NCBI GenBank assembly: GCA_038049695.1
Contig: CP142461.1
Coordinates: 38,675,501 to 38,739,500, forward strand
Length of the DNA stretch: 64,000 nt
Direction: 5' to 3'
Source of the DNA: Cinnamomum chago
Lineage: Eukaryota > Streptophyta > Magnoliopsida > Laurales > Lauraceae
Each line of letters begins with the position of its first letter. Position 1 is the stretch's first letter. This document shows positions 32,041-56,389 of the stretch, in pieces. Made by a program: the position numbers and the translations under genes. The notes beneath the pieces are model-generated. The model searched no databases and was not told the DNA's origin. It saw nothing but the letters and a program-made list of their open reading frames with translations.

Positions 32041-32640
32041 GTTTCCCTGGTGCGGGACCACTTGTGTAGTCTTCCGAGGGCCATATCTTTTGATCTGGTT
32101 GTCGGAACTGGACGTTCCACATATTGTCGGGAAGTTCTCAAAATTTAGAATCTGTTGGTTCATACACCCTAACAGTCATAGGTCAGGAAAAGTAAGGGAT
32201 ACTTGGATCAATGATTCTAACCTTCTGATTCGTGCTAATCGTATCGTACTTAGGCAAACTATGTGTAATCTCTTTAGGATCAACCTGAGTGTGTTCTATG
32301 TAGTCTGGAAGGGGTTTGGATAGCATTGTAGTCCATTCCTTGTTTGAATAGTGGGTTGAACTCGAGATCTCAACGTGATTCGGCCTTTTCTCTCATAATT
32401 TCTATGAATCGTCTAACTAAGTCTAAAATCATCAACGGGCATCTTCATCGTCATTAATTAATCTGAATTATGCCATTAACCATTCAATTATGGGTGAAAT
32501 GGGGGCATCGTTATATATGATAAGCGTTTAAGGCTATCATAGGGGGCCAAAATGAGGTGTCTACAGCTGTTCAAGAAAATGTTGTCGATCCAGCACTTGC
32601 CAATGCTCCTGTAGAACCCAACATTGATGAACTACAATGA

Positions 32641-35425
32641 GCAGATGATGAAGAAGATTTGGCTCCCATGCCTGATCTTGAGGAATATGAGGGGATCTTA
32701 CAGCGTCTTACCATAAAGCAAGAGCAGGATCATATCAGTCACCTTCGTCACAATCAAAATGCAGTGCCAGAAGTCCTTGAAGATTTACAAGAACATCCTT
32801 CGGTCACCCTGGAAAATGAAGAGAGCTGCTGGATTGATGATCCTCTTACATCCTAGGATGAGTCTGATTTCCAATGGTCTATTCCATGGGCATCTCCTAT
32901 CGGGGCAACCTGCAATACGATAATTCAGGATGATAATGCCTCTGAAGCTTCATCTGCCGAAGACACATACTCTCAGACTACATCTGGTAGATCTTCCAGA
33001 GCTATATCTTCTCAGGTGACTTCCACTGAGATAACACCTTCTCAGCCTTCGTCCCCTTAAACTGTGACATCACAACTCATAACTTTTCCGACCGATCATC
33101 CTGAAGAAACTCCAACCGATGAAGTCCTCTTCAATGAAAACCCGGTCAACTGGTCCCAGATACCTGACCTTATAGGAGATGTCTGGACCGATAAATTACT
33201 CAACAAGGAAGAAAAGTTGCTGGATGTTGTTCAGGACTTGTTCCCGGAAAATGCTCCGTTCAAGGCAATCACTGAGGACGGCAATGCTACTACGAAAATA
33301 TCTTCAGCAAATGAGAAGGATCAACCCCCTGATTCCGATGGGGATTTTCCAAAAGAAGAACCTTCTCCAGACGCTCTTGAAGTTGGTAGAGGTACCCGTT
33401 CTGGCCGGGATTACCATAAAAATTATAGTTAACCTTCTTCTTCTTATGTAAATCCTTCGGAAAAGCAAGTTGTAAACGTCCCAAGTGGCAGTGATAATGA
33501 AAATGCAGGCCCCAAGGAGGCTTTCAAGTACAACTTGATTGAGCACTTCAAACACATACATGCACGACTGCACATCCTTGACTTATTACGAATGTCTTCG
33601 CACACTCATGATAATCTTATTTCAGAACTGCAAAGGTTGAATGTGGATATCAAGAAACATGCCCCACAAGTCCTACAAATTGAAATGGACTATAGGGTCA
33701 AAAAAATCAAATACTTCCTCAAAGGGAGAAAATAAGAAAATCGTGGGATCAGACATTGAATGCCTCTCGATTTAGAAAGCAGCAAGTGCAACCATCGCCT
33801 TCGATAAGGATGACCTCCTGCTAGGCGAGACAAAGCACAACCGACCCTTGTACTTCACAGGGTACATTAAAGAAATGCCAATACACAGAGTCCGGATCTA
33901 CACTCAACCTTATCTCTACTTCGACACTTAAAGAGCTGAGTATTCCACCTAGCAAGCTGAGTCACACATCTGTATCCATCTTTGGATATGAAGGGAGTGC
34001 TTAAAGGCCTATCGACAAAATTAGGTTCATGTTGCAAATCGGTGATCTTATCTCTGAAGTCACTGTGTACGCCATCAGAACCCCTTCATGCCACAACATC
34101 CTTCTTGGACGCCCCTGGATACACGAGAATGGTGTCATCCCTTCAACTTTACATCAATGCATTGAGTTCGTTGGCAACAACGGCTTCATACATCGAGTGT
34201 TTACAGACAAAAAGCCATTCAAAGGCAAAGATATTCATTTTGCAGATGCTCAGATGTACAAGGATGAAAAAGAAGAATAGGAGGAAGAAACAACACCCTT
34301 TGTCGAGAATCTCCAGAAAGAGAAGGCCAAGGTTCCTCAGCAATCATCGGAAGAAAACAAACCTTCTAGCAAATCAAAAGAGAGCAATCCGTCTCCCTTC
34401 GTTGTCTCCTTCAAATCCTCCAAGTCTTTGGTAATCACCACCAAAACAAAGAAGATAAAACAAAAGACTGGAGGCAAGTTTGTTGTTTCCTTCGTGTCTA
34501 TCATGCAAGACACAGATTCAGATTCAGAGCTAGAAGACGATACACCGTCAACCCAAGTCGATACTCAGCAAGTTCAGCCTGCTCTCACTCCATTGGAGAC
34601 ACTTGGCTGCGTAGAAGACCCTGCGTCTGCTTTCTTCATCGTTCCGACGACTACGGCAGAAGAAAGCCAATCTTCTTCCACATATCGGAAGCTTCTTTAT
34701 CAAATTCTTCGCTTAGACCTTTCCAAAACAAAGATATGCCTCAGCTATCACTGTATAGTCCAATGGCACAAGCTATCATGAAGAAAATGGGCTATGATGC
34801 TCAGAATCCAATCAGTTTGGGAGGAGGCCGTGGTATTCTCACGCCATTGGAACCCACCCTGATCAAAAGTCAACTGGAGGATTGGAAACTCCACCGTCAT
34901 ATAGACAAGTCTTCATACGGGTTGGGGTATGATCTTGACACTCCGATGGGATAGTTGACACAAAGGCTGCAGAGTCGTTTTGCTGACCAGGCCTCAACAT
35001 CTCGTGCTCATGAACACATTGATCTCCCTAGATATCTCTTTGAAGAGACACCTATCAGGAATCCAGGAAGCTCATCCAATTTGTATGATTTCTCTGATAA
35101 TGAAGAGGAATTGTCTGACGATACAGAAACACGGTTTTCTGATCCAGAAGAACCATCGTCTCCAAAAGAGGTACCCTACTTCGACCTAGTTTCAACAAAT
35201 GATTGGGACTATCTCATAACAAGTCTTGAGAAGAGTACCGATCCAGAAGACCCATGGTCAGAAACAAAGCCTTGGTCTAAAAATGCCCTTGGTACTCAAG
35301 AAGGTTTCGTTGGGTTGGAAGCCTCCGAAAATATTTTGGAAGAACCACCTTTAAACCTTCAAACAGAAGATCCTGTTCAGAAGATAGATTTGGGACACCT
35401 GATAACCCACGTCTTGTATTCATAA
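32641..35425 (+). pseudogene. gag end, protease region and G-patch-like linker, copy B
   Basis: The plus strand is collinear with copy A 578-3250 read backward. It shows acidic gag segments (APMPDLEEYEGILQRL), VNWSQIPDLIGDVWTDKLLN at 33146-33206, a protease-like region with NILLGRPWIHENGV near 34095, and the G-patch-like block MKKMGYDAQNPISLGGGRG near 34780. Acidic linker sequence follows to 35425. The region has several breaks. Confidence 0.8.
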
Positions 35426-35539
35426 GAATATAAAGGATGATGAGTTACTCGAGTATATCTCTTTTTTTCGTGAGTTCGTTGATTGTTTTGCATGGTCTTA
35501 TGCTGAAATACCTGGCTTAGACCCTAAAATAGCAGTCCA

Positions 35540-37133
35540 CAAACTCAATTTGTAAAAAGTTATCAAGCCTGTCAAACAAGGTCAAAGAAGATTCCGTCCT
35601 GATGTGATGGACAAAATTGAACAAGAAGTTCAAAAACTCAAAAGCGTTGGCTTCATCTGTGGGGAACAACATCCTAAATGGTTAGCCAACATCGTCCCCG
35701 TGACAAAGAAAAATGGGCAGATCAGGGTCCGTATTGACTATAGAGACCTAAATAATGCAAGCTCTAAAGATGAATTCCCTCTCCCCATACTAGAGGTGAT
35801 GATTGACAACACCTGTGGGTTTGAGCGAATGACATTCATGGATGGCTTCTCTGGCTACAATCAGATAAAAATGCATCCTGAAGATGAAAAGCATACATCA
35901 TTTCGGACCCCGTTTGGTGTGTATTGCTACACTGTCATGCCATTTGGTCTGACAAATGATGGTGCAACATATGAGGGGGCTCTGATGAAGATATTCCAAG
36001 ATATGCAGCACAAGATGGTTGAATGTTACGTTGATGACCTTGCCGTCAAAAGCCAAAGAAAAGAAAACCATCTCAAAGATCTTCGAGAAGTTTTCCTCCG
36101 ACTTCGCAAACACAAACTACGAATAAATTCACTAAAAGGCTTCTTCAGTGTCTCATCGGGTAAGTTTCTTGGGTTCATAGTTCGTAAAGCCCGAATAGAA
36201 CTCGACCCCACCAAGGTCAAGGCTATCCTAGAGATGCCATCTCCAAGGACTCTAAGAGAACTGAAAGGGCTTCAAAGAAGATTGACATACATCTGACGGT
36301 TCATCTCCAATCTGTCAGGGAATTACTGTCCATTCTCTCGCTTGATAAAGAAAGATGTGGACTTTGTTTGGGATGCTAAATGTAAAGCAGCATTTCAAGA
36401 CATCAAAACATACCTGACCAAACCTCCAATGTTGGCTGCCCCCACAACTGGAAAATCATTCATCTTGTACACAAGAGCTCTCGATTATTCTTTAGGTGCT
36501 CTACTCGCACAAGAAAACAATGAAGGAAATGAAGTTACTCTATATTACCTCAGTTGCATGTTAGTCAGTGCAGAGCATCGCTACTCCCAAGTCGAAAAAG
36601 AATGCCTTGCAGTGATATTCGCCGTACAAAAGCTACGTCACTACCTGCTGTCCTACACAATCTACCCGATTTCGAGGATCAATCTCTTAAAGCTCCTTGT
36701 CACAAAAGCAGGTCCTCTCAATGCTCGATTGGCAAAATTGTCTACCATTCTATCGCAATTTGATATTAGGTATGTACCATAAAATGCAATCAAAGGTCAA
36801 GCTCTAGTAAACTTTCTCGCAGAGCATCCATTACCAAAAGATTCTCCACTTAGAGATGATCTCCCAGACAAACTTGTCTACAACGTGGAGACTTCCTCAC
36901 CAAATGCCTACCGGGACATGTATTTTGATAGTGCAACTAGGACAAATGAAAAAAGAAAGCTGATCTCGGGAGTTGGCATCCTCTTCGTTAGCCTCCACAA
37001 ATACATGATTCCATACGCTTTCTCGCTACTGGAACCATATTCAAACAATGCAGCAGAATACCAAGCACTGATTGTACGATAGGAACTCGCCCTCGAATCC
37101 GGTATCACCGTGGTAAAAGCTTTTGGGAGTCTC
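35540..37133 (+). pseudogene. pol: Reverse transcriptase, RNase H and start of second RNase H, copy B
   Basis: RT is clear: IVPVTKKNGQIRVRIDYRDL at 35690, the FMDGFSGYNQIKMHPED block at 35835, FRTPFGVYCYTVMPFGLTN at 35900 and the catalytic YVDD at about 36029. The gypsy RNase H follows (FILYTRALDYSLGALLAQEN near 36460; VEKECLAVIFAVQKLRHYL near 36590). After a spacer comes the start of the archaeal-type RNase H (MYFDSATRTNEKRKLISGVG near 36920; NNAAEYQALIV near 37045), a hallmark of the Tat lineage. A copia-type LTR interrupts it. Confidence 0.9.
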
Positions 37134-37480
37134 TGTTGGAAGTAGGTGGGCCTCATGGACAGATTTTTAAAACTTTTGGCCCACTTGACTCAGGGATCAG
37201 GATCAAGTACCCATAAGGCCATAAACCATATTCAGGATGCAATCCCGGATGGACCCAGTTTTTTCTCTCCTCTCCTCTCCCATCCGTCCCCGGGGTCACC
37301 GAGAGGATCCGAAATGGAGGGAGGAAAAGGGGAGAAAAAAGGGCATCTATATTTGTACGGGTATGCCAGATTTTATATTCTACTTGGAATTTAGAAGTGG
37401 TGATCCAGAGATCCACCTTCGCAAGCAGAAAGGAAATCAACCTTTTTTCTAACTTTCCATTACACATATATTTAAGAAAG
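37134..37480 (-). repeat. Fragment of a copia-type LTR (U5 end)
   Basis: It begins TGTTGGAAGTAGGTGGGCC and resembles the first 150 bp or so of the copia LTR at 21523 (shared phrases GGTGGGCC, AAACTTTTGG, CAGGGATCA, AGGATGCAATCCC), then diverges. The terminal TG is intact and interrupts Tat copy B precisely, so it entered as an insertion. The other end was not found. It is probably a relative rather than the same family. Confidence 0.65.
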
Positions 37481-37671
37481 GAGACAGTTTTTGAATGCCA
37501 TGAGAGGCGATTGTGTTTGCCGTAAAAAGCGATTTTGTTTGCCATGAAAGGCGAGTTTGTTTGTCGTGAAAGGGGATTTACAAATCTCATCGAAATGAAA
37601 GATAGTAATTGTGAGTTTTTTTGTCTCTTAAAGAAAATACAAAGTACAACAAAAAAGTAAGAAAGGGAATC
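37481..37671. repeat. Short minisatellite and spacer
   Basis: Four units of about 22-23 bp (GCCATGAAAGGCGAGTTTGTTT and variants) occupy about 37497-37577. The rest is featureless. The units resemble, but do not clearly match, the ggcatgaaagcc repeats at 45960-46560. Confidence 0.55.
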
Positions 37672-39710
37672 TGACTTCTCAGGAGATCGTGGGTACCAGT
37701 TCAGATCGACGGCTGCAAGTCATGTATGGACTTCGCCATTGTCCTTCAGATGAGAACGCTTGATGCTTTGATTCTTCGGCTTGGCTTGGACTTCAGTTTT
37801 TTAGAGGATAAGGACCAAGAGAAGGTCCTATACCCAATGAAAAACGAAGAGACGGGCTGAAGAGTCGCGTCTTGGCCATGTTGAGTAGGAGAAGAGAAGG
37901 CTTTTTGTTGCACACCCCCCTAAGGGACTTTGATCACCTTTGGGTGTTTGTTGCAGTAGAGTTTCTTCAGGCATTTGGTAGCTTTTAGGTGACTTTATGG
38001 GCTTTAATGCATTAAAACCACATAATGGGAGGAGTTATAAGTTTGAAATCCTTTGTTTTGTAACCCGTTTTTCTTGGCTTCTGATTGGCCGGTGGAGATA
38101 ATGGGCATTTAATCGCCTTTAATCTCCATGATGAGAGGAGTTTCATAACTTTAATGTCATGATGACTTGGACTTGTAACTCCCATTTCCTTGCTTCTGAT
38201 TGGGCCGTCCAAAATAATGAGTTAATGACCACATTTAGTTGGGTCAATTAACATCATTAAGTGGTCACCGAGGAGTTGAAGAGTCGCGGGCCGTGCCGCG
38301 TCTTTTGGAATTCTTCTTACGATGATAGACGATGGATCTTCATGTTGATCGATGTCGGATGATCACGCAAATTCAGATATTGGTTGATATCAACGGGCCG
38401 ATGACATCTGTCTTGTTGATTTCTTGATCGATCGGACAGAAAGTGCACTTTCTTGGTCAGCCATTGGCGATCTTGGAGCGATCGGTGATGATTTCATGCT
38501 CTTGACGGCAGATCCGTGATGTTGACCAAGATCAGTCGTTTCCGAGCATCAAAAATCAGATTTTTAGGAAATCATAGGGGCTGGAACTCCCAGAATGCGA
38601 AAAGAATCGGAAAAGGGCGCCCTACGGCGGAAATCAGGCGACCCGGATTTCCAGGGTTGCCGGCGACCATGGGCCATGGTTGCCGGCGACCATGGGGGGA
38701 TTTTCCCCTTTGGTCGTCGTTTTGTCGGCCGTTTTTCGAGCTTTTTTGCTTCTTTTTTTCTCCTGTATTTTTCTTGACATTTTCCCTCATTTTTTGACTT
38801 GGTTCTCCTAGAGAAAACCCAATGAGAAGTTGTGCAAAACCGGGCACAAAGTTTCCTATTCTTTGGAAAAGCCGAAGACTTTGCCGCGTAGAGTTGCTGA
38901 TTTTTGTCAAGAGTTGAAACTAAGTCAAACGATGTCAGAATGACCTAAAATTTGACACGGAGCTTCATGAATAGTAGATAGGACCAACCATGGGCTTTTA
39001 TTTGAGTTTTGAAGTCGTTTGGGGTCCCATCGCTGCTAGGCATGATTTCGCCGCGAGGGAGATGTCGCGCTTTGATGTCCAGTCAACCGATGTTTGATTG
39101 ACCTGAAATTTGACAGGGAGCCTATTGGAGTCATTTTGAGATGTTCCATTGGCTCTGATTTGGATGTCATGGTCCAGGGGTGCTTCGCCGCCGATAGCCT
39201 TGATTTTCTTTCGGAGCGTCGAAGTCGGGTCAAACGTTGTCGGAATGACCTGAAATTTGACGTACAACCCTTTTGAAGCATGTTGAAGCCGCCTATGTGC
39301 TCCGTTTGATGATTAATGGTCCCGGTGGTTCTCGCCGCCGAGAGGCTTGGTTTTCTTTCAGAGCGTCGAAGTCGGATCAAACGTTGTCAGAATGACCTGA
39401 AATTTGACGTGGAGCCTTTTGGGGGTATTTTGAGACCATCCATAGGCTTAGATTGGAGTTTTGATGTCTTCGACGTCGTCGCCACCAGGAGCGCTGTTTG
39501 GTTACCGGAGGAGTGAAGTTACGCCAAATGATGTCAGAATGGAAAGAAACTTCATGTGAACTCCTTTTGGCTGTCTTGAATGATCTATCAGTTTTCAAGT
39601 AATTTTGATAAGATCTTATGCTTGAAGCGGCATTGCCTGTTTGTAGTAGGATGCGGCTTCATGTGGCTTCTGGATGTTGAAGAGGCAAAGTGACATTTTT
39701 GGTGTCAACA
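37672..39710 (-). repeat. 3' LTR of Tat copy C (left edge approximate)
   Basis: The inner end is clear: TGTTGACACCAAAAATGTC on the minus strand from 39710, directly after the purine tract. The outer end is a guess at TGACTTCTCAGG (37672), which would give an LTR of about 2.04 kb. The LTR is noncoding and contains a tandem array of about 147-bp units. No matching second LTR occurs in the window, so its age cannot be judged. Confidence 0.6.
38930..39560. repeat. Tandem array of about 147-bp units inside the LTR
   Basis: The anchor TGACCT(G/A)AAATTTGAC lies at 38941, 39099, 39246 and 39393, and a degenerate fifth unit starts near 39538. Spacings are 158, 147 and 147 bp. Each unit also contains a GCCGCCGAGAGGCTT-like segment and GAGCGTCGAAGTCGG. 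The minus-strand ORFs here repeat the same peptide and are by-products of the array. Confidence 0.85.
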
Positions 39711-39725
39711 AATGCCCCCTCGAGG
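39711..39725 (-). promoter_or_regulatory. Polypurine tract, copy C
   Basis: The minus strand reads CCTCGAGGGGGCATT just before the LTR start. It is the plus-strand primer of the element and fixes the LTR inner boundary. Confidence 0.85.
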
Positions 39726-39929
39726 TACAGCGACCAGTAGCTTTTGGAGTCGGTGTGCCTCGAAGAGAAAACTTGAAGGATGGCCTTTTAATTTGACCAA
39801 GAGTCTTTCAGCATTTATTTTTTGAATAGCCTTTTGAGTTTCCAGGGGGATTTTATGGTAGTGAGAGGGATCACGTACCATTTCAAGGCAAAGTTTTGAA
39901 AAAGACATGAGGGAGTTGGATTTGGGTTT

Positions 39930-40225
39930 TCCTTTTGACCTTGTGAACTTAAGGGCTTTATGTGGCGCATCAGGCGGTCTAGAAGGATTTTTGGTTTTTG
40001 ACCTTGTGACCTAACAAGTTGTATGTGGCAGGTTAGGGGGTTGAGGTTTGATTTTTGGATTTTGACCTTGTGATCCAACAAGCTGTATGTGGAAAATTGG
40101 GGGGTAAGATTTGATTTTGACCTTGTGACCTAATAAGTTGTATGTGGCGACCTAGGGGGTTAGGATTTTTTTGTTTTGGCCTTGTGACCTAACAAGCTTT
40201 ATGTGGCAAGTTAGGGGACCAGGGT
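39930..40225. repeat. Tandem repeats of about 60 bp near the 3' end
   Basis: The phrase GACCTTGTGACCTAACAAG...GTATGTGGC recurs five times, with anchors at 39937, 40000, 40064, 40119 and 40178 (55-64 bp apart). It lies between the purine tract and the antisense gene, a place where plant gypsy elements often carry variable repeats. Between 40225 and 40815 I see only simple repeats: TTTC runs near 40320, and TCTCAAAG...GGGAGAGAA units of about 35 bp at 40530-40750. Confidence 0.75.
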
Positions 40226-40814
40226 GTGGGTTTTGTGGGTTGTCAATTTCAAGATTTTGACTTAATTTGGTTCATGAGGTTGGATGGTTTGGTTTTTTGG
40301 GAGCTCATGAGCCTTTCTTTTCTTTCTTTCTTTCTTTTTTTTTTTTTTTTGAATGGTTCAATCGACTCAAAAGAGGCATGGAACCATTTTGTATGCTCTT
40401 GGTAAGAGGAAATTTTTTTTTTTGAAAGGAAGCCCCTTTTAGTGCCCTAGGTGGTCAAACCTGACTCATGTGGGCTAGCGCATGGAACCTTAAGCTTTTG
40501 AAGATGGCTTAGATCTCACATGGTGTCATTTTGTAAAGAATATCTAAAAATATCTCTTTTGGATAGAGAACATCTAAAAATATTTTTACTTGGAGAGAAT
40601 TTCTCAAGTTTCCTTTCTTTTGGGAGAGATTTTCTCAAAGTATCTCTCTTTGGGAGAGAATATTTCTCATTCCCTTTCTTTTTGGAGAAAATTTCTCAAA
40701 GAATCTTCTCTTTGGAAAAGAATATCTCAAATCTCCTTTCTTTTGGGAAGGTTGCTAATGTTTAGCACTTACCTCCTTTCTTTTCTCCTTGTTTCCTCTT
40801 TTGGTTTGCTCTTT

Positions 40815-40824
40815 TCTATAAAAG
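40815..40824 (+). promoter_or_regulatory. TATA box upstream of the antisense PMD gene
   Basis: The plus strand reads TCTATAAAAG, preceded by CT-rich sequence and followed by a CT/CTT-rich leader. The first ATG lies 126 bp downstream at 40950. It is well placed to start transcription antisense to the element's own RNA. Confidence 0.65.
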
Positions 40825-40959
40825 CAAGGGTTGATTGGATCTTTGCTCCTTTGCTTTCTTTCTTTGCAAGAGTCTTCAAGAGTGCTCCAAGATCAAGAGT
40901 TCTTCTTCTTCTTCAAGGATCTTCAAGCTTTTCCTCTTCTTCTCCATCAATGGCTTCAA

Positions 40960-41878
40960 GTAAGTTTTCTTTCTCCACAAGAAATTTCCATTGTAGAAGT
41001 AGAATTCTTTTCTTTTCTTTTCTCCTCTTTGTTTTTTTTTCCTTCTCCCTTTTTTTTTCTCCATGTGTTTTTTTTTTTCACGTGCTGTTTTTTTTTCTTT
41101 CTTTTACACCTTTTCCCCCCCTTTTTTTAATTGGCTATACAGACCTGGCCGTACTGCCACGTGGCAGTGAGCCACGGCCTGCTGCTCAATTTTTATTTTT
41201 TTTGCTTTTCTCCTTTTTTTTTGCTCACCAAGATAATGAAGTTTATGCACCATGGTAATGAGGTTTATGCATTCCAAGATGTTCATGCATATTTCTTTCT
41301 TTCTCTCTTTTTTTTTTATGCATCAAGATAAAAGGCTAGAATCTCTAGGTCAAGTCAACATGAATTTTGACTTTGACAAAGTTTGATTGGTTTTGACCAA
41401 GTTGGGCTGGAATTGATCAAACTTTGGTTAAAGTTTTCCTAGCTTCTAATGCATGATGATTTTTTATGTATGCTTTTTAGTAAATTGATTGGGCGAATGA
41501 TGATGCATACCTGGAAATCTTTTGCAAGCTTCAGGATTTGGAGCTCGCAGCAATGTTGAGCCCTTTCCTGATCTTGCTGGATTTTGAGGAGCTTTGCAAG
41601 TTTCGGAGTTTGGAGCTCGCAGCAATGTTGAGCCCTTCTTCAAGCTTGCGGAGATTTGATGAGATTGGTTTGATCTCGCAACAATGTTTGAGTTCAAAAC
41701 CTTCTTTGAGGATGCTTCGTTGAGCTCATCTTCAAGCTTCCTGTCTTTGTCGGGATGTTTTCCTCTTCTTCGGAATTGTCCCGGAATCATGCCAAGATTT
41801 CGCTAGAATTTTCTTCTTTTTTTTTTAGCAAAATTCAGTCACTTTGATGATTGATTTTTCCTTTTCCATTCTTTGCAG
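40960..41878 (+). other. Predicted intron 1 of the PMD gene
   Basis: The donor GTAAGT follows the ten-base first exon, and the acceptor is TTTGCAG at 41878 after a pyrimidine-rich tract. Donor and acceptor are in compatible phase with the open frame that starts at 41879. The intron contains several T-rich runs and two copies of GGAGCTCGCAGCAATGTTGAGCCC (41540 and 41611), the second part of a local tandem duplication. Confidence 0.7.
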
Positions 41879-44374
41879 GTAGTTCTTCCAGAATGAATAA
41901 GGGCAAAGAGCCTGCTACTTATGCACCTTGTCAGTCTATTAGGTTTCCTAATGTGGCCGTACAGCAGGCCTGGGAGAAGGTTCAGTTTGTGGAGAGAAAC
42001 TTGGAAGAGTGTGACTTCCTCAACCGTGATGAGATGAGACAGCGATTGATCACTCTCAAGGATGAGGAGTTCTATAGGATTATGGTAAGCAACCATCTTT
42101 AGGTCATGGACGATCAGAACGTTGTGCCCAGGCCTACCTTCTTCTTTGGCGATGCAGTCCCTGGCGACTTGACGTACCAAAGAAGATGTTTTCAGTTCTC
42201 TTACACAGCTGATGGTGAGGAGAGAACTATTTCTACCCAGTCGACTTTTGATTGGACTGTGTCGTTCATGAGTCTTTCTCCCACGTGTCCCAAGAGGGAG
42301 GATCCTCCAAGCTGGGTGAAGAGGACCAATGTGATAAAGACCGGGGTTTTTGTTAGCGAGTCTTCCGGATATGCGGAGAAGTCGTCTGTCCGTATGGACA
42401 TGTTGATGCCCTCCAGTGGCTACCAAGGTTCCGACCATCCGTCGGTCAATTTGAAACTGGCTGGCCTTGGCATTTTTCGGGGTGACAGCAGCAGTTGGGT
42501 GAAGCGTTTTCGACTTCGTGGCCGTTTCAATGCTGATTCGAGCTGGGAATCATGGACTAATCACACCCTGCCGGTTGGTGGAAAATTTTAAGGGAGGCCG
42601 GGATCTTCGACGCGGTTCGCGCTTTTTGAAATACCGTGGTTTTCTTCGATGAGGCCTTCATGGCCATGCTAGAGTCATTCCTTCCACAAACCAACACCTT
42701 CATTGTAACGAATGGTGAGATTGGTTTTATGTTGAAGGAACTAAACTTCATCACCGAGCTGCCTATCCTTGGCAAACTCTATGAGGAGTTTATGCCTACC
42801 GACAGCGTTCTTGAGGAGCAGTCAGAGGAATTCAGGCTCCTGTACTTTCAGCTCGTCGCCTTCTATGATATTTTGAAGAAGAAGGAGGGCTTGAAAGTCC
42901 GGGCAGCAGTTGGAAGACTTGCAGCTCCAACTTCTTTGACGGCGGAGAGTCTTCTAAAAGTATGGCCCAAGATTCTAGGGCCAAGAACCCAGGTTCGAAC
43001 AAGATCACCGTTATGCGAGATGACTTGAAGAAGTTCTTCGAGAGTACAGACGCCATTTGTTCTGACATCGCACTGCGAAGAGATCTCGCTGTTTACCTCA
43101 CTTATTGGTTGGGTGAGGCTGTTTTCGCTGGAGGAGATGGAACGCACATCAGGCCGCATTGTATCTTTCCAGCTTGTCAGATGGCGTTCGGAGAGCGGTT
43201 AGCTCTGGTGCCAGCTCTTTACTCCTACTTGTGCACCAAATTACAGGCTACTGCTTTCTTGGTTCGGTAAGGGCTCTCTATGAACAGGGTATTTTTAGCC
43301 CATATTTTTTATTCGTGGTATGTGTACCACTGTCCCAGCTTCCATCGCTTAGGAGTTGCGCAGGATGATGACCCTTTCATGATTCGGTTGGCTAGAGGGG
43401 CAGCCGTTAACGAATCTCTTTTGTCTGCCCGTTTGAGGATCCGACAGTTGAGGGACGTCGAGATCGGGCAATCTTTAATGAATCTTTCTCCAGGTTTGCG
43501 GAAGAAGGCTTTTGATTTTGGAGCCTCCCGCGATTCCACCAGGACGGGGTTGGGAAGACATTACTCCTTGACCAATGCAGAAAAGGGATGGCTTTTTAAC
43601 ATACATGTTGGTACGATGCTATACCGGGGCATCTTTTTGTTGATATCCAGCCGTATGTTCCATCGCGTTTAGCGTTGCAGTTGGGCTTCTCTCGAGGCGT
43701 TGTTGGAGTGCCTTCGAGCATGGTGAAGCGTTTTGGAGGTTTGCAAGACGGGAGGAATAAAAGGGCCTTTTATAGTGCGGAGGACACTACCGCCATGATT
43801 TCCTATCCTGAGTTGCCCACTTTCCAGACTGCTGGCTTCACGAAATGGTTTGTGGAAAGCTTTTCAGTGTACTGGGGGCTTTCCAAGAAGGAGCTCGATG
43901 TCAAGCAATCTCCTGGGAAGGGTCTTGGCAGATCGGATGGAGTCCGTCGAGAGGAAGTCTTGTCTTTCCTTTCCGGAGAGAAGCACGAGATCGGCTTTCT
44001 CAATGAGCAGGACATCATCAAACCAGGAGTTGTACAAGAGATACCAAGTGAGGTCTTGGATCAGCTCGAAGAGGAGGAAGTCGAGATCGACGCTTGGATG
44101 CAAGCAGAATTGACGAAGGATTCCATGGAGTCCACCGGGAAGAGCAGACTATCGGGTGAGGAATCAAGCGAAGCTCTTGACTTTGACAGTGGGGCGGGTG
44201 CTTCAAGTAAACCATCCCATAGAAGCAAGAGGAAGAGAGGACGGCGCCGCATTAAGAGACAACACGATGACTCTCCTGATTTGGAAGTCCCTCTTGCCAC
44301 CGCTGAAGAGATGTCAGGGGATGTTGATGAGCTTCCAGAAAAGAGGAGCCGAGAGAATGAAACCGTTGATGAAG

Positions 44375-44453
44375 GTATGATTCCTCTTTCTTTCCTTTTT
44401 GTTTCTTTCTTTGAGATTTTCTTGTTTTGATCTGCCTTTTCTCCCTTTTTCAG
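44375..44453 (+). other. Predicted intron of the PMD gene (79 bp)
   Basis: GTATGA donor, T-rich body and TTTTTCAG acceptor, between acidic coding segments (ending near VDEG and resuming near EDEDLM). Size and signals are typical of short plant introns. Confidence 0.75.
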
Positions 44454-44570
44454 TGGAGGATGAGGACTTGATGATGCCTGAGGTTCCAGCCGATGAGGCA
44501 GTGACGGATCTGGTTGCAGCATCTAAAGAAGAACCGAGGGACTGTGGAGTGATTCTAGAGTCTTCACCTG

Positions 44571-44646
44571 GTATGACTTCTTTGTATTTTCTTTCTTTTT
44601 GTGTCTATGCTGTCATCTACTAACATGTTGCTTGTTTTCTTGTCAG
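44571..44646 (+). other. Predicted intron of the PMD gene (76 bp)
   Basis: GTATGA donor, a CTAAC branch-like sequence near 44621 and a CTTGTCAG acceptor. It lies between short acidic exons. Confidence 0.75.
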
Positions 44647-44731
44647 CTGACTTGCCACAGGATTCCGACGATTTCGAGCCATCCATGGATGCGGCCTTTG
44701 ACGACGCTTCTTCTGTCGATCGTTGAAGAAG

Positions 44732-44808
44732 GTATTCGTAGCAATAACCCTGATGATAATGATTTTTTTTCAACAGGATCATATTCATACCTCTTTTTTT
44801 TCTAGCAG
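44732..44808 (+). other. Predicted intron of the PMD gene (77 bp)
   Basis: GTATTC donor, T-rich 3' part and TCTAGCAG acceptor. Its size nearly equals that of the two preceding introns. The downstream exon continues with an acidic segment (EVTEEVPPSFSVPEQG). Confidence 0.65.
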
Positions 44809-45735
44809 ATTGTGAGGTGACAGAAGAAGTTCCTCCGTCTTTCTCAGTGCCAGAGCAGGGGATGCCTACAGTTGAACCAGAAGCAGGGACTTCTTATTCC
44901 AGTTTTAATGCAACAGAGATGAAATCTTCTGAGCAGATTCCTTCGCCAGTGTCTTTGGTTAGAAAGAGCTTAATGATCACTCCTCCAGCAAGACATGACA
45001 CGGGCAATCGACCAATGGAGAGGGGTGAGCCTTCGTCCAGGCCATCTCTTGATTATGCGAAAAAAGTGTTGAAGAGCGTTTTGAGCTCATGGATCGAAAC
45101 TCTTTCTTCTGGCCATTTAGAAGCTGACTTTGGTATGATTAAGCATGTACAGGACATCCTTGCTGATAGCGAAGAGGTCGGCCTGGACAGTGCAGATGCG
45201 AAGGCTTTCGTTGATGAAGTCATAGCTCTAGGGAGCAAGTCGAATGAAACCAAGAGCAAGTAGTGACTTCTTCAATGAGATGTTTTTGAAGCCTTATGGT
45301 GAGGTCAAGTCAGAGCTGGACGAAATCTCGTAGACTCTGAAGCAATTCGTTCGGGAGAGGAACGTTTACCGAGTTGGCTATCATCGGGCTGACAGAGGAT
45401 CCGCGCAGTATTGATAGGGAGGTCGTTGAGACCAGGCAGCGTCTTGAGCTATTGGAGGAACAACCTGTCGCGAAATGGGCTGCCATTGTGGAAGCTCGTG
45501 CCAGAGAAGGGACTCTGATTCGCCAAGTCAAAGAGACTGAAAGCAATCTCCGGAGGAAGACTCAAGAGTACGAGCAATGGTAGATTCTTTGGGAAGAGCT
45601 TCCCCGTGCTGCAGACGGATCGTGCCGTTTTGCCGCATTCTATGGGAAGATCTTGAAGAAGCGTGGCCTGGAAGCTTTAGAGGCTAAAGCCAAGGGTTTG
45701 CTTGAGGAGTAGAGTCATTGGTTGAAGACCATGTG

Positions 45736-47507
45736 AGACTGAGCTCCTGATTCTTGTAACAAACTTTTTCTTCTTCTTTTTTCGGTACCCGTGCATACAC
45801 ACATATATTTTTGGTACTCTTTCTTCTATAGTGCTTATGGACATTTTTTTAGCTCTTCTCTTTTTGTATTCCCTCTTTTCACTCAAATTCTTTTGTGATA
45901 AATTCAAGCAATGGGAATGTTTGTTTGGAAATTTGATCAAAAGTTTGTCATTTTCTGAAAAACCTTTTTGTCAAATGGTTGTTTTGGCGTGAAAGACAAT
46001 TTTTGAGATGGCATAGAAGCCAAAATTTGGGTCGGCATGGAAACCGGAATTTTAAGGCCAAAATTTGGGATGGCATAAAAGTCGGTTTTGTTTGTGGTGT
46101 GGGAGCCAAATTTTGAAATGGCATGAAAGCCGATTTTTGAAATGGCATAAGAACCAGGTTTTGTGGCGTAGGAGCCGAAGTTTTTTTTTTTTTTTGAAAT
46201 GGCATGAAAGCCAAAATTTGGGATGACATGAAAGCCGGTTTTGTTTGTGGCATGGGAGCCAAAATTTTGTTTGTGGCATTGATAGTCAGGATTTTTTTTT
46301 GTTAGCATAGAAGCCAAAATTTGTTTTTGGCGTGGAAGCCGAAATTTTGTGGCGTTTATAGCCGAGTTTGTGGCGTTTATAGCCGATTTTTTTGTGGCAT
46401 TTATAGTCGATTTTTGGCATGAGAGCTGGGTTTTTGACATTTATAGCCGATTTTTTTTTTTGAAAACCAAGTTTTGTTTTGTCGGCGTGAAAGCCAGGTT
46501 TTGTGGCATTTATAGCCGATTTTGTGGCGTTGATAGCCGATTTTTGGCGTGAGAGCTGGGTTTTTGGCATTTATAGTCGATTTTTGGTTTTCAAAAATGC
46601 AAGTATCGACTAAAAGTCGCCTCCCTGCTGAATGGTCTTGCAAGTATCGATGGAAGGTCGCCTCCTTGCTCATTCGATTGCGAGTATCGATGGAATGTCG
46701 CCTCCTCAAAGATTTGGGCGCAAGTATCGACTAAGCGTCGCTTCCTTGCTTTTTCAAAATTTTGGTTTTGTGGGTATCAATGGAATGTCGCTTCCCCACG
46801 GATTTGGGCGCAAGTATCGGCAAAGCATCGCTTCCTTACTTTGTCAAAATTTTGGTTTTGTGGGTATCAATAGAATGTCGCTTCCCCACGGATTTGAAAT
46901 TTTGAGGTCTTTTTTTTTTACATTGGTTTTTTGTTTGAATTTTGGGTTTGTGGATATTAACTGGAATGTTGCGTCTCCACGATTTTTGAAAATTTGCAAG
47001 TATCGACAAAGTGTCGCTTCATTGCGATTTAAAAATTTTTGAAAGTATCGAATGGGGTTCGCATCCTTCCGATATTTGGGTTTTGCGAGTATCGACTGAG
47101 CGTCGCTTCCCCGCGGTTTCTAAAAAACCCCTTTTTTTTGTTTAAAGACATGAGGGATGTAAATTTTGGTCTAAAACCATTTTGGTGGTAAAAGACAGGG
47201 TCGATTAGGGTGAAATCCTGATTTTGTTGGTAAATCCTGATTTTGGTGGTAAATCCTGATTTTGTTTCAAACCATGAATTTTGTGTTCAAAGGTTGAAAA
47301 TTTGGTCAAGTCCGAGAAGAGGCTCCTAAACTTAGATTTTTGAATTTTCTTTTTTTTGAACAATGAAACTATGAAAGTAAGCATTGTTTTGAATTTTTAG
47401 AAATCTCAACATAAGGATGAAAAATCTAAAAGAGGCAGGTTTGATGAGCGAGTACCTGAGGATAGGCTTTGGCCGTGCAGGCACTGCTCTGACCCAATGG
47501 TGTAAGT
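45736..47507 (-). repeat. Repeat-rich spacer between pol and the antisense gene, copy C
   Basis: There are two repeat families. From about 45960 to 46560 the plus strand repeats GGCATGAAAGCC...TTTTG phrases every 20-45 bp. From about 46590 to 47120 it repeats AAGTATCGA(C/T)...GTCGC(T/C)TCC phrases about 50-75 bp apart. The remaining 47130-47500 is plain noncoding sequence just downstream of the pol stop. ORFs of about 100-170 codons on the minus strand are translations of the repeats. The same two families occur in the same order at 55070-56020 in copy D. Confidence 0.8.
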
Positions 47508-48610
47508 CTTCAAGGGTAGTACCGCTTCAAGAACTTGTCGTTGATGGGCAGCATACATCTGTCGCCCTCCATGTTTAGAAGTGCGTATGCGCCGTTGGAG
47601 AAGAATATGTCAATGACAAAGGGTCCCTCCCATTTTGGTTCGAGTTTGCCTTTGGATTTGTGGGCGAAAACCATTGGCCTTCTTACCGTAAGAACCAAGT
47701 CACCCTTTTTGTAGGTGCATTGCCGGGCCCTTTTGTCGAAAGATCTTGGCATACATGCTTGGTACAGCTCAATGCTTTGTAAGGCTTCGAGCCGTCTTTC
47801 GTCGAGATTTCCAGTACTTGGAGTCTCAATTTGACATTGCTTTCTTACGTCATATCATTTTGCAAAGATACCCTTAAGGAAGGAATTTGTACTTCCAAAG
47901 GGACAACAGCTTCGCTTCCATAAACCAAATAGAATGGTGTGCTATGGGTTGGTCCTCGAACGGTGATTCGATAAACCCACAAAGCTTTACGTAGTTTGTC
48001 GCCCCAGTCTCTTTTGTGGCTAGAGACCATCTTCTTGAGGATTTTGCAAAGTGTCTTGTTGAAGGCTTCTGCTAGTCCGTTTGCTACCGGATTATACGAA
48101 GTCGAAGGACAACTTTGGATTTTGTACTTCTCGCAAACTTGTAGAATCGGTGATCCCGGAATTGTGGTCCGTTATCATGAACGAACCTTTTAGGTATACC
48201 GAAGCGACAAATAATGTTGATGCGCAAGAATTGAAGGACTGATGAGGTCTTCATTTCCCTGAGCGTAAACGCTTCTGACCACTTGGAGAAATAATCCCTA
48301 ACGGCGAAGATGAAGCGATGACCTTTGCTTGATGGGGGAGAGATAGGACCTATGATGTCCATACCCCAAGCTTCGAACGGCCACGAGATTGCTGTGGGAT
48401 GTAGCCATTCTGGAGGCATATGAACATAGTCTCCATGAACTTGGCATTGGCGGCAGCGTTTAGCAAATTGCATGGCGTCAGCTACCATGGTAGGCCAATA
48501 ATATCCTAGCCTTTTTATCTGATCGTAGAGCTTAGGACCGGCCTGATGGGCTCCACAAAGACTAGCATGAACTTCTTTGAGGGTTTCCTCAGCCTCTTGT
48601 TGTGACAAGC
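47508..48610 (-). pseudogene. Integrase, copy C
   Basis: The minus strand carries the integrase N-terminal zinc-binding region (HASLCGAHQAGPKLYDQI, then AKRCRQCQVHGD). The core follows, with WGMDIIGPISPPSSKGHRF and VHDNGPQF. The C-terminal part has YKKGDLVLTVRRPM and EPKWEGPFVI, ending LPINDKFLKRYYP at about 47510. Length and order match Tat integrases. It inserts element cDNA. The region has a few breaks, but domain order is intact. Confidence 0.9.
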
Positions 48611-48623
48611 AGCGTAGAAGTAC

Positions 48624-49400
48624 TCAATCGAAGGATTTTCTGTAAAGCATTTTTGAAGGTATATTCAAATGAAAGTTTGGGGGTTGTCTTTGGATGCTTA
48701 CCAGTTCTTTTGGATCTTCAAGGAGGATTCCGAACATGGTGTAATCAATGAACGGATCTCTCCAGTAGCCGATTGGAGGTGTAAGGATGGAAATCCGACT
48801 TCTGGCCAATTGGTGGCATTCAACAACTGCTTGGTGTGTGTTAAGAGGAGGGAGAATCCTTCTTTGACACACTGTAATTTGCAAGTTCTCCCCTTTCTGG
48901 ATCGCCATGGATGCGGCAAGCCCGGCTAGGGCATCTGCATGAATGTTCTCACCTCTGAGGATATGGGTGATGCGACAGATGTCGAACCTTTGGCGAAGTG
49001 AATGTGCCTTGTTGTAGTGAGGCAGCAGATCAGGCATCTTGACTTCAAATCCCTGATTCATATGGTTGACAAACAATTGAGAGTCTCCAAAGACTTCCAG
49101 CATGGTGATGCCGGATTCGAGGGCTAGTTCCAATCCTACAATCAGGGCTTGGTACTCAGCTGCATTGTTTGAGCATGGTTCCAGTAGCGAGAAAGCATGT
49201 GGAATCATGTGCTTGTCGGGCCTAACAAAGAGGATGCCAACTCCCGAGATTAGGTTTCTTTTTTCATTTGTCCTGGTTGCACCATCAAAGTACATGTCCC
49301 AGGAGGCATTTGGTGAGAAAGTCTCCACGTTGTAGACAAGTTCGTTTGGGAGATCATCTCTGAGTGGGGAATCTTTAGGCAACGGATGCTCTGCGAGGAA
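48624..49400 (-). pseudogene. Second, archaeal-type RNase H (Tat hallmark), copy C
   Basis: The minus strand shows WDMYFDGATRTNEKRNLISG with the first catalytic Asp, NNAAEYQALIVGLELALESG with the Glu, an FGDSQL block with the second Asp, and IHADALAGLA with the last Asp. This second RNase H, between the normal RNase H and integrase, is an accepted marker of Tat-lineage gypsy elements. It probably shares RNA removal and primer processing with the first RNase H. Confidence 0.9.
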
Positions 49401-50620
49401 ATCCGTTAGGGCTTGACCTTTGATTGCCTTTTTGTGGCACATACCTGATATCAAATTGTGATTGGAGGATGGACCATTTTGCCAGTCGGGCATTGAGAGA
49501 ACTTGCTTTTGTGACAAGGACCTTTAAGATGTTGATCCTCGAAATCAGGTAGACTGTGTTAGACAACAGATAGTGACACAACTTTTGTTCGGCAAACACC
49601 ACTGCAAGGCATTCTTTCTCGACTGGAGAGTAGCGATGCTCCGCACCTACCAGCATACGGCTGAGGTAGTATAGCGCAGCTTTTTTTCCTTCGTTATTCT
49701 CTTGTGCGAGCAGAGCGCCCAGAGAGTGGTCGAGAGCTCTTGTGTACAGGATGAATGGTTTTCCAGTGGTAGGGGCAGCCATCACTGGAGCTTTAGTTAG
49801 GTATGTCTTGTTGTCTAGAAATGTTGCTTGACATTCAGCATCCCAAACAAAGTTCACACCTTTCTTCATTAGGCGAGAGAAGGGACGACATTTTCCTGAC
49901 AGGTTGGAGATGAACCGTCTGATGTATGCCAATCTTCCTTGAAGTCCTTTCAGTTCTCTTAAGGTTCTTGGAGAAGGCATTTCTAGAATAGCTTTGACTT
50001 TGATGGGGTCAAGTTCTATTCCAGCTTTCCGGACTATGAATCCAAGAAACTTACCCGATGAGACGCCGAAGAAGCATTTCAGGGGATTCATTCGTAGTTT
50101 GTGTTTGCGAAGTCGGAGGAAGACTTCCCGAAGGTCTTTCAGATGGTCTTCTTTACTTCTGCTTTTGACGGCGAGGTCATCAACGTAACATTCAACCATC
50201 TTGTGCTGCATATCTTGGAATATCTTCATCATAGCCCTCTGATATGTGGCACCAACATTTTTCAGACCAAATGGCATGACAATGTAGCAATACACGCCAA
50301 ATGGGGTCCAAAATGATGTGTGTTTTTCATCTTCAGGATGCATCTTTATCTGATTGTAGCCAGAGAATCCATCCATGAATGTCATTCGCTCTAACCCACA
50401 GGTATTGTCAATCATCACCTCTGGTATGGGGAATGGGAACTCATCTTTGGGGCAAGCGCCATTTAGATCTCTATAATCAAACAAACCCTGATCTGCCCAT
50501 TTTTCTTTGTCACAGGGACGATGTTAGCCAACCATTCAAGATGTTGTTCTTCACGGATGAAGCCGAACTTTTTGAGTTTTTAAACTTCTTGTTCAATTTT
50601 GTCCATCACGTCTGGACGGA
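49401..50620 (-). pseudogene. pol: Reverse transcriptase and first RNase H, copy C
   Basis: A frame of about 370 codons (50484-49375) covers FDYRDLNGACPKDEFPFPIP, FMDGFSGYNQIKMHPED, FGVYCYIVMPFGLKNVGATY, the catalytic YVDDLAVKS and the thumb. The connection and gypsy RNase H follow (FILYTRALDHSLGALLAQEN; VEKECLAVVFAEQKLCHYL). The first block of RT continues to about 50620. This is one of the better-preserved pol segments in the window. Confidence 0.92.
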
Positions 50621-50721
50621 ATCTCCCTGATGGGAGATTCCCCCAGAGTGGACTGTTAGGAGTTGGACTCATTATCTATCCCGCAGTTTTCTCCATTTTG
50701 AGGAGTTTAAGGAGGAGGTAC

Positions 50722-53700
50722 TTATTGATTTTCAGGGACTTCCGGTTCCGGATTTTGATCGCGAAGATCTTGCTCTTGTTCTAAGGCAAGGCGCTGCAAG
50801 ATCCTCGCATACTCTTCAAGATCAGGCATGGGAGCCAAATCTTCTTCTTCATTTGTCCCTTGTGGTTCGACATAACCGGGTTCCAATGGAGGGTCAAAGG
50901 GTGCTGAGTCAATAGTATTTTCTTGAACAGGCTCTTGGTCCCCTTCATCATCGGACCAGGATCCCTGTTGTCTATATGGGTTATACCAGATTACCGGCAT
51001 AAGGTGAGTTTTGGGAACCCATTCTTCGTCGGAGAGATATTCTCCTGTTTCAAGGGATTCCTCCCACTCGTCGGTGTCACTGGACTCGTATCCATCTATG
51101 GAGAATCCAATTACCGAATTGCAAGAGTATGATGCCCCTTGCGTAGTTTCATTTTTGAATTGAGGTGGCATGAAATCACCAAGGGTGAATTTTCTTTCCA
51201 CCTTTGAAGCCTTAGATACTTCCGTTGCCTTTTCAAGGACTTCTTGCTTTGATTGAGCTTTCTCCTGCTGTTTGAGCCTGCGGAGTTGTCTCTTGGCTTG
51301 CCTTCGCTGTCGAGCGGTAGGCTTTGTTTTGACGATCTCCCAGTTTTCATCTTCTAGGAGATCGGGATGTACCCATATAGGTTGTCTGTCTGGTGTTGGA
51401 TAAGGAACCAACTCTTGGGACATCTGGGTCATTTCTATCACCGTAAAGGAAGTAGTGGTCTTCTCCTTTAGTGACTTCGAAGTTTGTCCATACGACACCA
51501 TGTTGACGGAGGCAGACCCATAGTTTTTGTCAAAGGTGATGACTGCGTTTTTCCACATCTCGTTGATCTTCTCTTTCACAACGAAGCATTGATTAAGAGG
51601 ATGCGAGATCATTTGGTGGTAGGGACAATACCGAGGATCATGGGTTGTGCCAACATCTCCCAGTCTTTTGGGCTCAAGTTAGGTAAGTTTACCATTTAAT
51701 ATGAGAGCCTCGAAGATTTCTTCGACATCTTCATCAAACAGATACTTTTTCTCTACTCGTTCCCTGAAGGCATCAGAGAGTTCAGGTTTCTTACCTGCAG
51801 CTTTGTTTTTAGCTTTCTTTGGCTGCTGAGGAGCTGGCTTGGTTTGTACATTAAGAACCTCCTTTTTCTTTGGCTTTGAGGTCGTAATGGTAGCCGGCTC
51901 TTTCTTTGATGACTGCTGACTGTTGAGGTCTTTGATCACCATTTCAGTCTCCATGGAAGCTTCTAGGAGTTCTCCCAGGTTCTTTGATTTATTGTCAATA
52001 ATCATGGAGCGGATCCTTACTCTCATGTTGTTGCGGCAGATGTCGACGAGCGATGCTTGTGGCAGCACATCTGAGCACTTGTATATCATCGCCTTCCACT
52101 TATGAATGAAGTCGTAAGTTAACTCATTCTCTCCCTGTTTTAGGCTGCAAAGTTGTGCCATAGTAACATGATGATCCTCACCTTTGAAGTGAATCAGGAA
52201 GCGTGTCTCTAGCATGGCCCAATTTTGGATGGAGTCCTCTGGTATAGTGGAGTACCAATCGAAGGTTGTACCTTTTAAGGTATTTGCAAAGAGATGGATC
52301 TTGAGGGCATCTTGAACTGCGATAGCTCCCGTCAGTATCTTGAAATGAATGACGTGTTGTCTGGCTGAGCCTTTCCCCGTATATGTTTGGAGAGTAGGTT
52401 GCTTGAATTTTGCAGGGAACGGGACCGGGTCCATCCATAAGGGATATGGTGGCTTGATCCCATGCTCCTTCAGTGTATCCTCTTCTCTTACTTTGGAGAG
52501 GATATCGTCAACGTCCGTTTTGGTAAGGGCACGTGACTCACTGTTTTCTGCATTTTCTTCGTTATCTGGAGGAGATTGGTTGTTTTCTTGACACTGAAAA
52601 GCGAGATGAAGATTTTCCATCAGAGCCTCAATCCTCTGTTGACCCTTCTCCAATTGCTGGATACGTACTGTCTTTTCATTCGGAGGTGGATTGCGAGGTT
52701 GCTCAGAGTTTGTAACCAAGACGTTCATCCTCCGTGATTCTAACGAAGAGATCGTCTTAGTGACTGAGCTGGGGCTCATTCTTAAAGAACTTGAGGAAGG
52801 ATTACTCCTTGGTCCTTGGCTTGAAGGAGTAGAAGATTCTTCAGGGCGTCTTCGTGTCCGGGAGACATTATGAGTCACCGGTTGTCGAATGTGAAGTTTA
52901 GTTGCTGACTTTTGGCGTCTTCTGATTTTACCAACTATATGGACAGCAGCAACTTGATCGGGTCTTTCTTTTTCGACCCATTTTTGGGAGACTTGGAGAA
53001 TAGGATGCTGGGTCCTTTGCTTCTCTAGTCTCGTTTGTCTATACGACATGCGACGACGTATGCGACGGGCAATTTGAGCTTCTGTCAACTCTGGCTGGGC
53101 TTTAGCAATGAAGGATGTACTCTCTCGAGCGCAACAGCCGAGCTTGTCTTCTTTGAAGCTAGGCATAGACAGGATTTGGACCCGGTCCTTAGACTATTGC
53201 AGCGAAGCTTTGAATTTTGCGAGTTCGGCCCCCGTTGAGATAAAGGGTCGAACTGCAGGAGTGCAGGCCTTGGCAGTTTCTTGCAGAGGCTTCGGGATGT
53301 ATGATTTGATTTTTGGCTTGTAGGAGCAAGCCAACTCGGGATGGGTTGCCTTCTTTGTCAGGCAAGAGCCTGGTTTCTCCTCCTTCATGTATGCAAGAGG
53401 ATAGAATCGGTTTTCTTTGAGAGGGGCCAGGTATGCTGGCCTTCCAGATGTTCAGGACCTCCTTTGTTTTGGCGAAGGTTTTGGGGACCAAGTCTTAGGG
53501 TAGACCTGGTTCTCTGCAGGTTGAGGCTTCATGGGGTTGCCACGGGCTTCAGGTTTCTTTGCGTTCGCCCTTGGTGTCATGGCAGTGACATGTTGCGGAG
53601 TGATCTTCTGCTTCTTGGCGGGTGCGATTTCCTCTGCGGGAAGTGGGAACGGTCCCAACGACCCGAAGATGATAGTCCGGGGAGTAGAGGTCGACCCGGT

Positions 53701-53834
53701 GTTCTGAGATTTGTCAAGGGAGACGACACTTCGGCAGCTGGCAGGGCGCTTATGAATGCGCTTGTTCTGCTTCTCCTGGAGCATGAGTTGGTACTTGTTC
53801 TAATCGAAAGTGATGGTTAATGAAGCTGCCATTG
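50722..53834 (-). pseudogene. gag: gag, copy C
   Basis: The start is best placed at the minus-strand ATG at 53834 (MAASLTITF). A basic, Pro-rich N-terminal region follows. The frame 53166-51679 (495 codons) contains the retrotransposon gag core: MDPVPFPAKFKQPTLQTYTG, HFKILTGAIAVQDALKIHLF, TFDWYSTIPEDSIQNWAMLE and ELTYDFIHKWKAM. The frame 51612-50722 carries the acidic C-terminal part with FTLGDFMPPQF. Gag would assemble the particle. Breaks are few. Confidence 0.88.
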
Positions 53835-54716
53835 TTAGTTTTTGAAAAACTTCTGAAACAAGACCACGTCCATTAGTAATCACAAGAATATAGTGATCAT
53901 AAAGGGGAAAGAACTATGGTTTTGTCTTTTCAAATCGCTCAAGGGAACATGGCCCAGTCCAAGCGAGACGAAAGAAGGCAAAAAGCCATAGAGGATACAA
54001 TTGTTCTGAACGCAAGTACGGGAGGCTCAGAACGAGCATTCCAATGACTGCTACAAGCAATTGTAGACCTTAATTCAAATTACCGAGAAGCGAGGCTCAC
54101 TCGAGGTAAGATGATTAAGGTTGGAGATACAAATGTGTCGGTTGCGAATACAGTAGATCCGGAAGGGCGTACTAGCACCGCTAGGCACAAATGTTGCAAA
54201 TCACATCCTTGGAATAGACATGAGATGGGATTTTTGAAGGTCAAAATCGGGTTCATAAAAGAGAGCAAATGGTGTTCCAATCCGAATAAGGGCTCAAACA
54301 TTTCTGCGAGCACCAAATCCGAAAGGGAATGAACCAAGAATTCTCAAATGTAAACCCAAAGATGACGATTTTTTTTTGAAAGTTTTTTTTAATTTTTGTT
54401 TTTCTTTTTAAAGGAACACAAAGGTTTTCAATTCGGTCTTATGAAACCTTAGTAGATAGATTAGCCCCCAGGTAAGGGTAGGATTACTTAACGAACCCGT
54501 TTGGAGGACCCTTGCCTCGAACAATCTAGCTGTCTCCACACTCTGGACAAGGCTTTTATTAGATCCACTTTTGTCAAAGAACGCAATTGGTGCAACCTCA
54601 GTGGGTTTTGCAAAAAAATTTATTTGATTTTTTTTAACAAAGAGAACAAAAGGTGTTCCAATCCGAATAAGGGCTCAAACATTTCTGCAAGCGCTAAATC
54701 CGAAATGGAGGGGACC
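53835..54716 (-). other. Leader region of copy C and junction with copy D
   Basis: No gene is called. On the minus strand this lies upstream of gag and should hold leader, primer site and 5' LTR, but I could not identify a TG...CA end or a convincing primer site. It contains a direct repeat of about 75 bp at 54261-54335 and 54641-54716, separated by about 305 bp. The second copy stops just before the tail of the PMD gene of copy D, so the two elements are joined without LTRs between them. Confidence 0.5.
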
Positions 54717-56385: not shown

Positions 56386-56389
56386 CTTC

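Follow-up and report, generated by a model that had tools for sequence, protein, structure and literature searches.

Probable remains of an antisense, intron-bearing accessory gene with a PMD-like product in a Tat-type Ty3/gypsy element of Cinnamomum chago

The window analyzed here, a stretch of 64,000 nucleotides from Cinnamomum chago (contig CP142461.1, positions 38,675,501 to 38,739,500 of the forward strand, assembly GCA_038049695.1), harbors four pieces of one retrotransposon family, which were recognized by self-comparison and are designated A, B, C and D. This report is concerned with a gene on the plus strand that lies opposite the gag-pol of element B and extends from a TATA box at position 40817 through an ATG at 40950 to a stop codon at 45740 (all positions refer to the window). 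It consists of six exons and five GT-AG introns and encodes, in broken form, a product resembling plant mobile domain (PMD) proteins. We hold with good confidence that the gene is what is left of an accessory gene carried by a Tat-type Ty3/gypsy element, placed between pol and the 3' long terminal repeat (LTR) in antisense orientation, with its own promoter, five introns and a PMD-like product.

The TATA box (40817-40822), from which a promoter of its own is predicted for the gene, is the single TATAAA on the plus strand of 40800-46000 and is a match to the consensus alone. Exon 1 (40950-40959) consists of the start codon running into a GTAAGT donor and is in phase with exon 2. Intron 1 (40960-41878, 919 nt, GTAAGT...TTTGCAG) contains two hairpins that are described below; the T fraction for 40962-41883 is 0.43. 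Exon 2 (41879-43266) carries the PMD-like blocks (42654-42776 and 43007-43243) along with internal stops and frame changes, and is followed by intron 2 (43267-43338, 72 nt, GTAAGG...CCCAG), which contains the stop of the frame. Exon 3 (43339-44374), identified by open frames and translation, includes a basic cluster. Intron 3 (44375-44453, 79 nt; T 0.59 vs 0.19 in the flanks), exon 4 (44454-44570, phase kept), intron 4 (44571-44646, 76 nt; T 0.54 vs 0.24), exon 5 (44647-44731, holding a break) and intron 5 (44732-44808, 77 nt; T 0.43 vs 0.27) lead to exon 6 (44809-45742), which encodes a coiled-coil-like tail and ends with the stop codon at 45740 that is common to copy D. The intron sites were placed by hand from listed splice sites and the phases were also worked out by hand, that of intron 5 from the frame at the end of exon 5 because of the break inside that exon. 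The five introns connect open frames in phase.

A strict rule that requires a donor, an acceptor, a length of 65-100 nt and T-richness relative to the flanks was also applied. On the plus strand of 43200-44900 it returned three candidates, and these were introns 3, 4 and 5; the rule ends intron 5 three nucleotides earlier, at 44805, while the acceptor at 44808 keeps the phase. The rule returned no intron on the other strand of 43200-44900 and none in the 6323 nt of gag-pol in either orientation, amounting to 14.3 kb of controls in total, and each of 300 Markov controls contained at most one candidate (mean 0.10). Introns 1 and 2 are placed by phase and splice sites only, because intron 1 lies outside the length allowed by the rule and intron 2 is missed by it. 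An antisense gene with a TATA box, an ATG and several GT-AG introns, as claimed in a first-pass annotation of the DNA, is thus borne out, with three of the five introns found by the strict rule.

Ten pieces, nine on the plus strand and one on the minus strand, were searched separately against Pfam. The piece 42630-42953 matched positions 19-59 of the PMD profile (PF10536) with an E-value of 0.0017 (18.1 bits) and the piece 42950-43264 matched positions 93-161 with an E-value of 4.3e-6 (26.6 bits). The two matches are collinear and both are on the plus strand, and no PMD match was obtained in the one minus-strand piece scanned. The same two blocks had been returned by an earlier scan of six plus-strand pieces. 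The other two protein features proposed in the first-pass annotation are present in the sequence as well: translation reveals the basic cluster at 44221-44262, and a heptad pattern in the tail piece 45350-45577 was matched by only 4 of 300 shuffles. No such pattern was seen in three other pieces (109, 182 and 187 of 300 shuffles). Transposase_28 (PF04195) was matched neither in six plus-strand pieces (up to E 1) nor in nine (up to E 10), although a split domain could escape detection in a broken gene. Pfam matches to PRORP (0.07) and DUF6027 (0.22), as well as two matches at E about 0.6 in a PDB search with one piece, were taken as chance. Searches for relatives with the two PMD-like pieces and a reverse transcriptase piece among viral contigs, and with one PMD-like piece among genome contigs, gave no match; both collections are non-plant and these results carry little weight.

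The host element was classified by its pol domains. Four of six pieces of the broken gag-pol of element B (47513-53835, minus strand) gave Pfam matches, namely Retrotrans_gag (6e-9), RVT_1 (2.2e-25), RT_RNaseH_2 (3.2e-25), RVT_3 (1.7e-17), rve (3.3e-11) and H2C2 (2.7e-10). On the minus strand, the order in pol is reverse transcriptase, RNase H, RVT_3 and then H2C2/rve, i.e., the integrase. We read RVT_3 as a probable additional RNase H. Element B was assigned to the Tat type because this second RNase H-like domain lies between RNase H and integrase, which is the arrangement that characterizes the Tat clade and is given for Ogre and Retand elements in PMC6317226. The earlier assignment of the host as a Tat retrotransposon is supported by the position of RVT_3. 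The location of the gene, antisense and between pol and the putative 3' LTR, is that of the antisense genes behind pol that have been termed aORF-3R.

The gene is real but dead in this copy, because its exons (3567 nt with introns removed) contain at least 11 interruptions, i.e., stops or frame changes, corresponding to 3.1 per kb, a value well under the minimum of 21 (mean 28.5) in 100 Markov controls. When the introns were left in, 14 interruptions were counted over 3861 nt. The other strand of the same exons has 19 interruptions, within the range of its own controls (mean 22.1, minimum 14). As read by eye, the breaks fall in exons 2, 3, 5 and 6. Stops lie at 42100 and 42627, exon 6 has several, and shifts of the frame occur near 42.55, 42.95, 43.6, 44.7 and 45.25-45.4 kb. 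The gag-pol of element B is broken too, with at least 12 interruptions over 6323 nt (1.9 per kb), such that a dead gene resides inside a dead element. The first-pass annotation had missed this decay, and its suggestion of a product able to act is not supported for the present copy.

A remnant of the tail of the same gene is found in copy D (54734-54848, plus strand), as evident from self-comparison and from a comparison of codons between B and D. Copy D, whose two long stretches of alignment with B show about 80% and 87% identity, retains only the last 105 or so coding bases (about 35 codons) before the stop common to B. As the tail is present in D up to the same stop, the gene predates the split of B and D. 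Among the approximately 35 codons, 14 are changed, seven of them synonymously and seven not, while the expected synonymous share is 0.28 (P about 0.06). Two of the seven non-synonymous changes are stops in B that are absent from D. In the first 25 codons, seven of nine changes are synonymous (P about 0.004), with the cut chosen after the data had been seen. Six junction codons (45617-45634), all changed and five of them non-synonymously, were excluded because homology may end there; when they are included, eight of 20 changed codons are synonymous. This comparison of synonymous and non-synonymous change, which had been proposed as a check, suggests constraint on the tail but does not show it.

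A motif of about 42 nt is common to the gag-pol leader and intron 1 of the antisense gene. It has the same sense in each transcript and occurs twice in each place, at 41521-41580 (intron copy A) and 41593-41652 (intron copy B) on the plus strand and at 54275-54330 and 54656-54709 in the leader on the minus strand. All four copies were characterized by folding, arm pairing and a covariance model. The local score between leader and intron is 55, compared with at most 32 among 200 shuffles. All copies adopt one core fold, GCUC-GCA-GNRA-UGU-GAGC inside a longer stem, with a GNRA-type loop whose sequence is GAAA in the leader copies and GCAA in the intron copies. Folding z-scores of the four hairpins are -3.9, -1.85, -2.6 and -2.3, with 0, 13, 5 and 5 of 200 shuffles as good. 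Within each copy the outer arms pair at -13.7 to -18.9 kcal/mol, and in all four cases none of 1000 shuffled arms performed as well. When arms are swapped between leader and intron, the values drop to between -3.0 and -7.3 kcal/mol, about the level of shuffled arms, whereas pairing persists (-11.3 to -18.6 kcal/mol) when arms are swapped within one place. The divergence of the arms with persistence of pairing argues for a functional structure rather than a mere repeat; the copies within each place are closely related, and in effect this is one comparison of two groups. The covariance model recovered the four hairpins from which it had been built at E 2.1e-10 or better. Its next best match in the window, a weak third intron copy at 41655-41712, had an E-value of 0.6 and was not counted. 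A search of 40500-55000 against Rfam gave seven matches up to E 5, all under the gathering scores and none covering the hairpins. The exact hairpin core was without a match among viral contigs, again a non-plant collection of little weight. An origin of the entire 5' region of the antisense unit by copying of the gag-pol leader was rejected, as there is no similarity outside the hairpin.

The surroundings of the gene are as follows. Element B extends on the minus strand from approximately 39.7 kb, the start of the putative 3' LTR, to approximately 54.7 kb, with both ends read by eye. The putative 3' LTR (37250-39705, ends approximate, minus strand) was likewise recognized by eye from a purine run followed by TGTTGACACC, and its partner was not found: self-comparison of the window yielded no LTR pair for element B, and reading by eye yielded no sure primer binding site. 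A polypurine tract probably lies at about 39710-39720, which would leave about 1.1 kb between the promoter end of the antisense gene and the putative 3' LTR. Tandem repeats flank the gene on both sides (39910-40217 and 46100-46900) between pol and the putative 3' LTR, and similar arrays have been described for Retand elements (PMC11963269). At about 54734 the 5' leader of B directly adjoins the gene tail of copy D, and a 5' LTR of B was not found at this point. This LTR has probably been lost, and the junction probably arose by deletion or illegitimate recombination. Copy D occupies 54734-60263 (minus strand), copy A 1-4464 (minus strand, cut by the window edge) and copy C 32567-37133 (plus strand), the latter ending before the place of the antisense gene. 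Self-comparison also uncovered other repeats of about 93-94% identity, both direct and inverted, at 14423-15547, 19523-20118, 22234-23267 and 27047-29809, which perhaps represent a second, younger element family.

Plant Gypsy elements with PMD genes, and accessory genes located antisense behind pol, have both been published before, and the gene described here is a variant of this known kind. The statement in the first-pass annotation that both are known from such elements agrees with PMC6317226, PMC5418596 and PMC7264820. According to PMC9289625, PMD was the most frequent atypical domain of plant Gypsy elements in one screen; PMC6317226 gives its presence in 57% of Ogre elements, and PMC5418596 describes the clades PMD-A1/A2 as encoded by Gypsy elements alone. 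Our gene resembles these systems in that a PMD-like gene resides in a Tat-type Gypsy element, a likeness at the level of the domain family, and differs from them in its antisense position behind pol and its division by five introns. It shares place and strand with the aORF-3R genes listed in PMC7264820, i.e., gene23 of maize Grande and those of rice RIRE2 and Silene Retand, for the first of which a nuclear product and a promoter of its own are reported. Unlike the gene found here, those are not described as containing introns in the accessible text of PMC7264820, whose authors recommend a search for antisense and spliced transcripts. Antisense genes of Retand were surveyed in PMC11963269, in the accessible text of which the word 'intron' does not occur. 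The TRP28 genes treated there correspond to our gene in place, strand and the tandem repeats in the pol-to-LTR stretch, but the pieces of our gene lack a PF04195 match. The host silencing proteins MAIN and MAIL1 (PMC5418596, PMC7156037) belong to the same Pfam domain family; these, however, are encoded by host genes. Among the papers listed by searches of the open-licence literature, none was seen to describe an antisense accessory gene with multiple introns or a hairpin common to both units. Intron structure and shared hairpin may be new.

Several observations weigh against our interpretation. The two PMD pieces, when searched apart, fall below the curated Pfam cut-off of 34.9 bits, so that of the clear PMD block announced in the first-pass annotation a pair of collinear matches stands, each of which is sub-threshold. 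Interruptions are denser in the antisense exons than in gag-pol, which could mean weaker constraint on the antisense gene. A codon-usage score trained on gag-pol favored the minus strand at most steps; this score is confounded by strand composition and was dropped as evidence because it tracks the A-richness of the sense strand. In the absence of an LTR pair the borders of element B are not proven. Finally, D alone among the other copies in the window reaches the gene. The earlier claim of a family trait rather than a one-off has this one other copy and some 35 codons as its basis, which place the gene before the B-D split. A chance origin of the open frames and splice motifs, on a strand with T-rich stretches, would fit the sub-threshold PMD pieces but has next to no probability in view of the Markov controls for both interruptions and the intron rule.

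Three further explanations deserve attention. The function of the locus could reside in its RNA, with the antisense transcript pairing with genomic RNA and feeding small-RNA silencing or limiting copy number, and with the protein being of minor importance. This option is named in a review (PMC7264820), tea PMD genes are described as sources of phased small RNAs with 175 PHAS loci (PMC10673657), and the present copy encodes no whole protein. We nevertheless regard it as unlikely, since protein coding is favored by the exon-intron anatomy, by the match to PMD and by the weak surplus of synonymous changes in the tail of copy D. The presence of the same hairpins, in the same sense, in the 5' part of each unit would fit the backward insertion of a separate transposon, or of a 5' fragment of a related, PMD-bearing element, that brought leader hairpins along. 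The similarity to the leader, however, stops at the hairpin, with scores of 24 for 40800-41500 (shuffle maximum 36) and 28 for 41645-42000 (maximum 32), and self-comparison revealed no bracketing repeats, though no search aimed at such repeats was made; we consider such an insertion quite unlikely. Equally, the five introns resemble those of a nuclear gene acquired as DNA, as if this lineage had once captured a host PMD gene rather than inherited an old element gene. Copy D also has the tail and the PMDs of Gypsy elements form clades of their own (PMC5418596), which renders a one-off capture very unlikely, even though it could be old.

Under our preferred explanation of an accessory gene of the element, the antisense introns would be present in genomic RNA as their complement, splicing would not remove them, and each new copy would inherit them; they would be removable solely from the gene's own transcript. 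Antisense placement would thus allow introns to persist through the RNA cycle. The protein of intact relatives would be PMD-like, with the basic cluster followed by the coiled-coil-like tail; it would most likely be nuclear and influence how the element is transcribed or silenced. That the gene is expressed and spliced in the plant and that its product is nuclear are predictions from the DNA. Whether such a protein would aid the element against silencing or limit it is a matter of guesswork, and the same is true for the counter-defence role suggested in the first-pass annotation. An anti-silencing role was proposed earlier for MULE-borne PMD (PMC5418596). The hairpin invites speculation about a double-headed element, in which it would serve as a cis-acting signal bound by a single factor of element or host origin (Gag, the PMD-like protein, an export or a splicing factor) and would couple the fate of the genomic RNA to that of the unspliced accessory transcript, in the service of packaging, export or autoregulation. 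This idea is conceivable but doubtful, and a role of the hairpin in packaging, export or splicing control is likewise a guess.

The kind of gene is known and the copy at hand is broken; it is the intron anatomy and the shared hairpin that are worth following. The antisense placement explains how a retrotransposon can retain an intron-bearing gene through its RNA cycle. Surveys based on the length of open reading frames can undercount accessory genes; that in PMC6317226, which counts those of at least 250 codons, could miss a gene split in this way. If the shared hairpin is held in relatives, it would provide a concrete handle on the regulation of two opposed units, and the old question of accessory-gene function would become testable.

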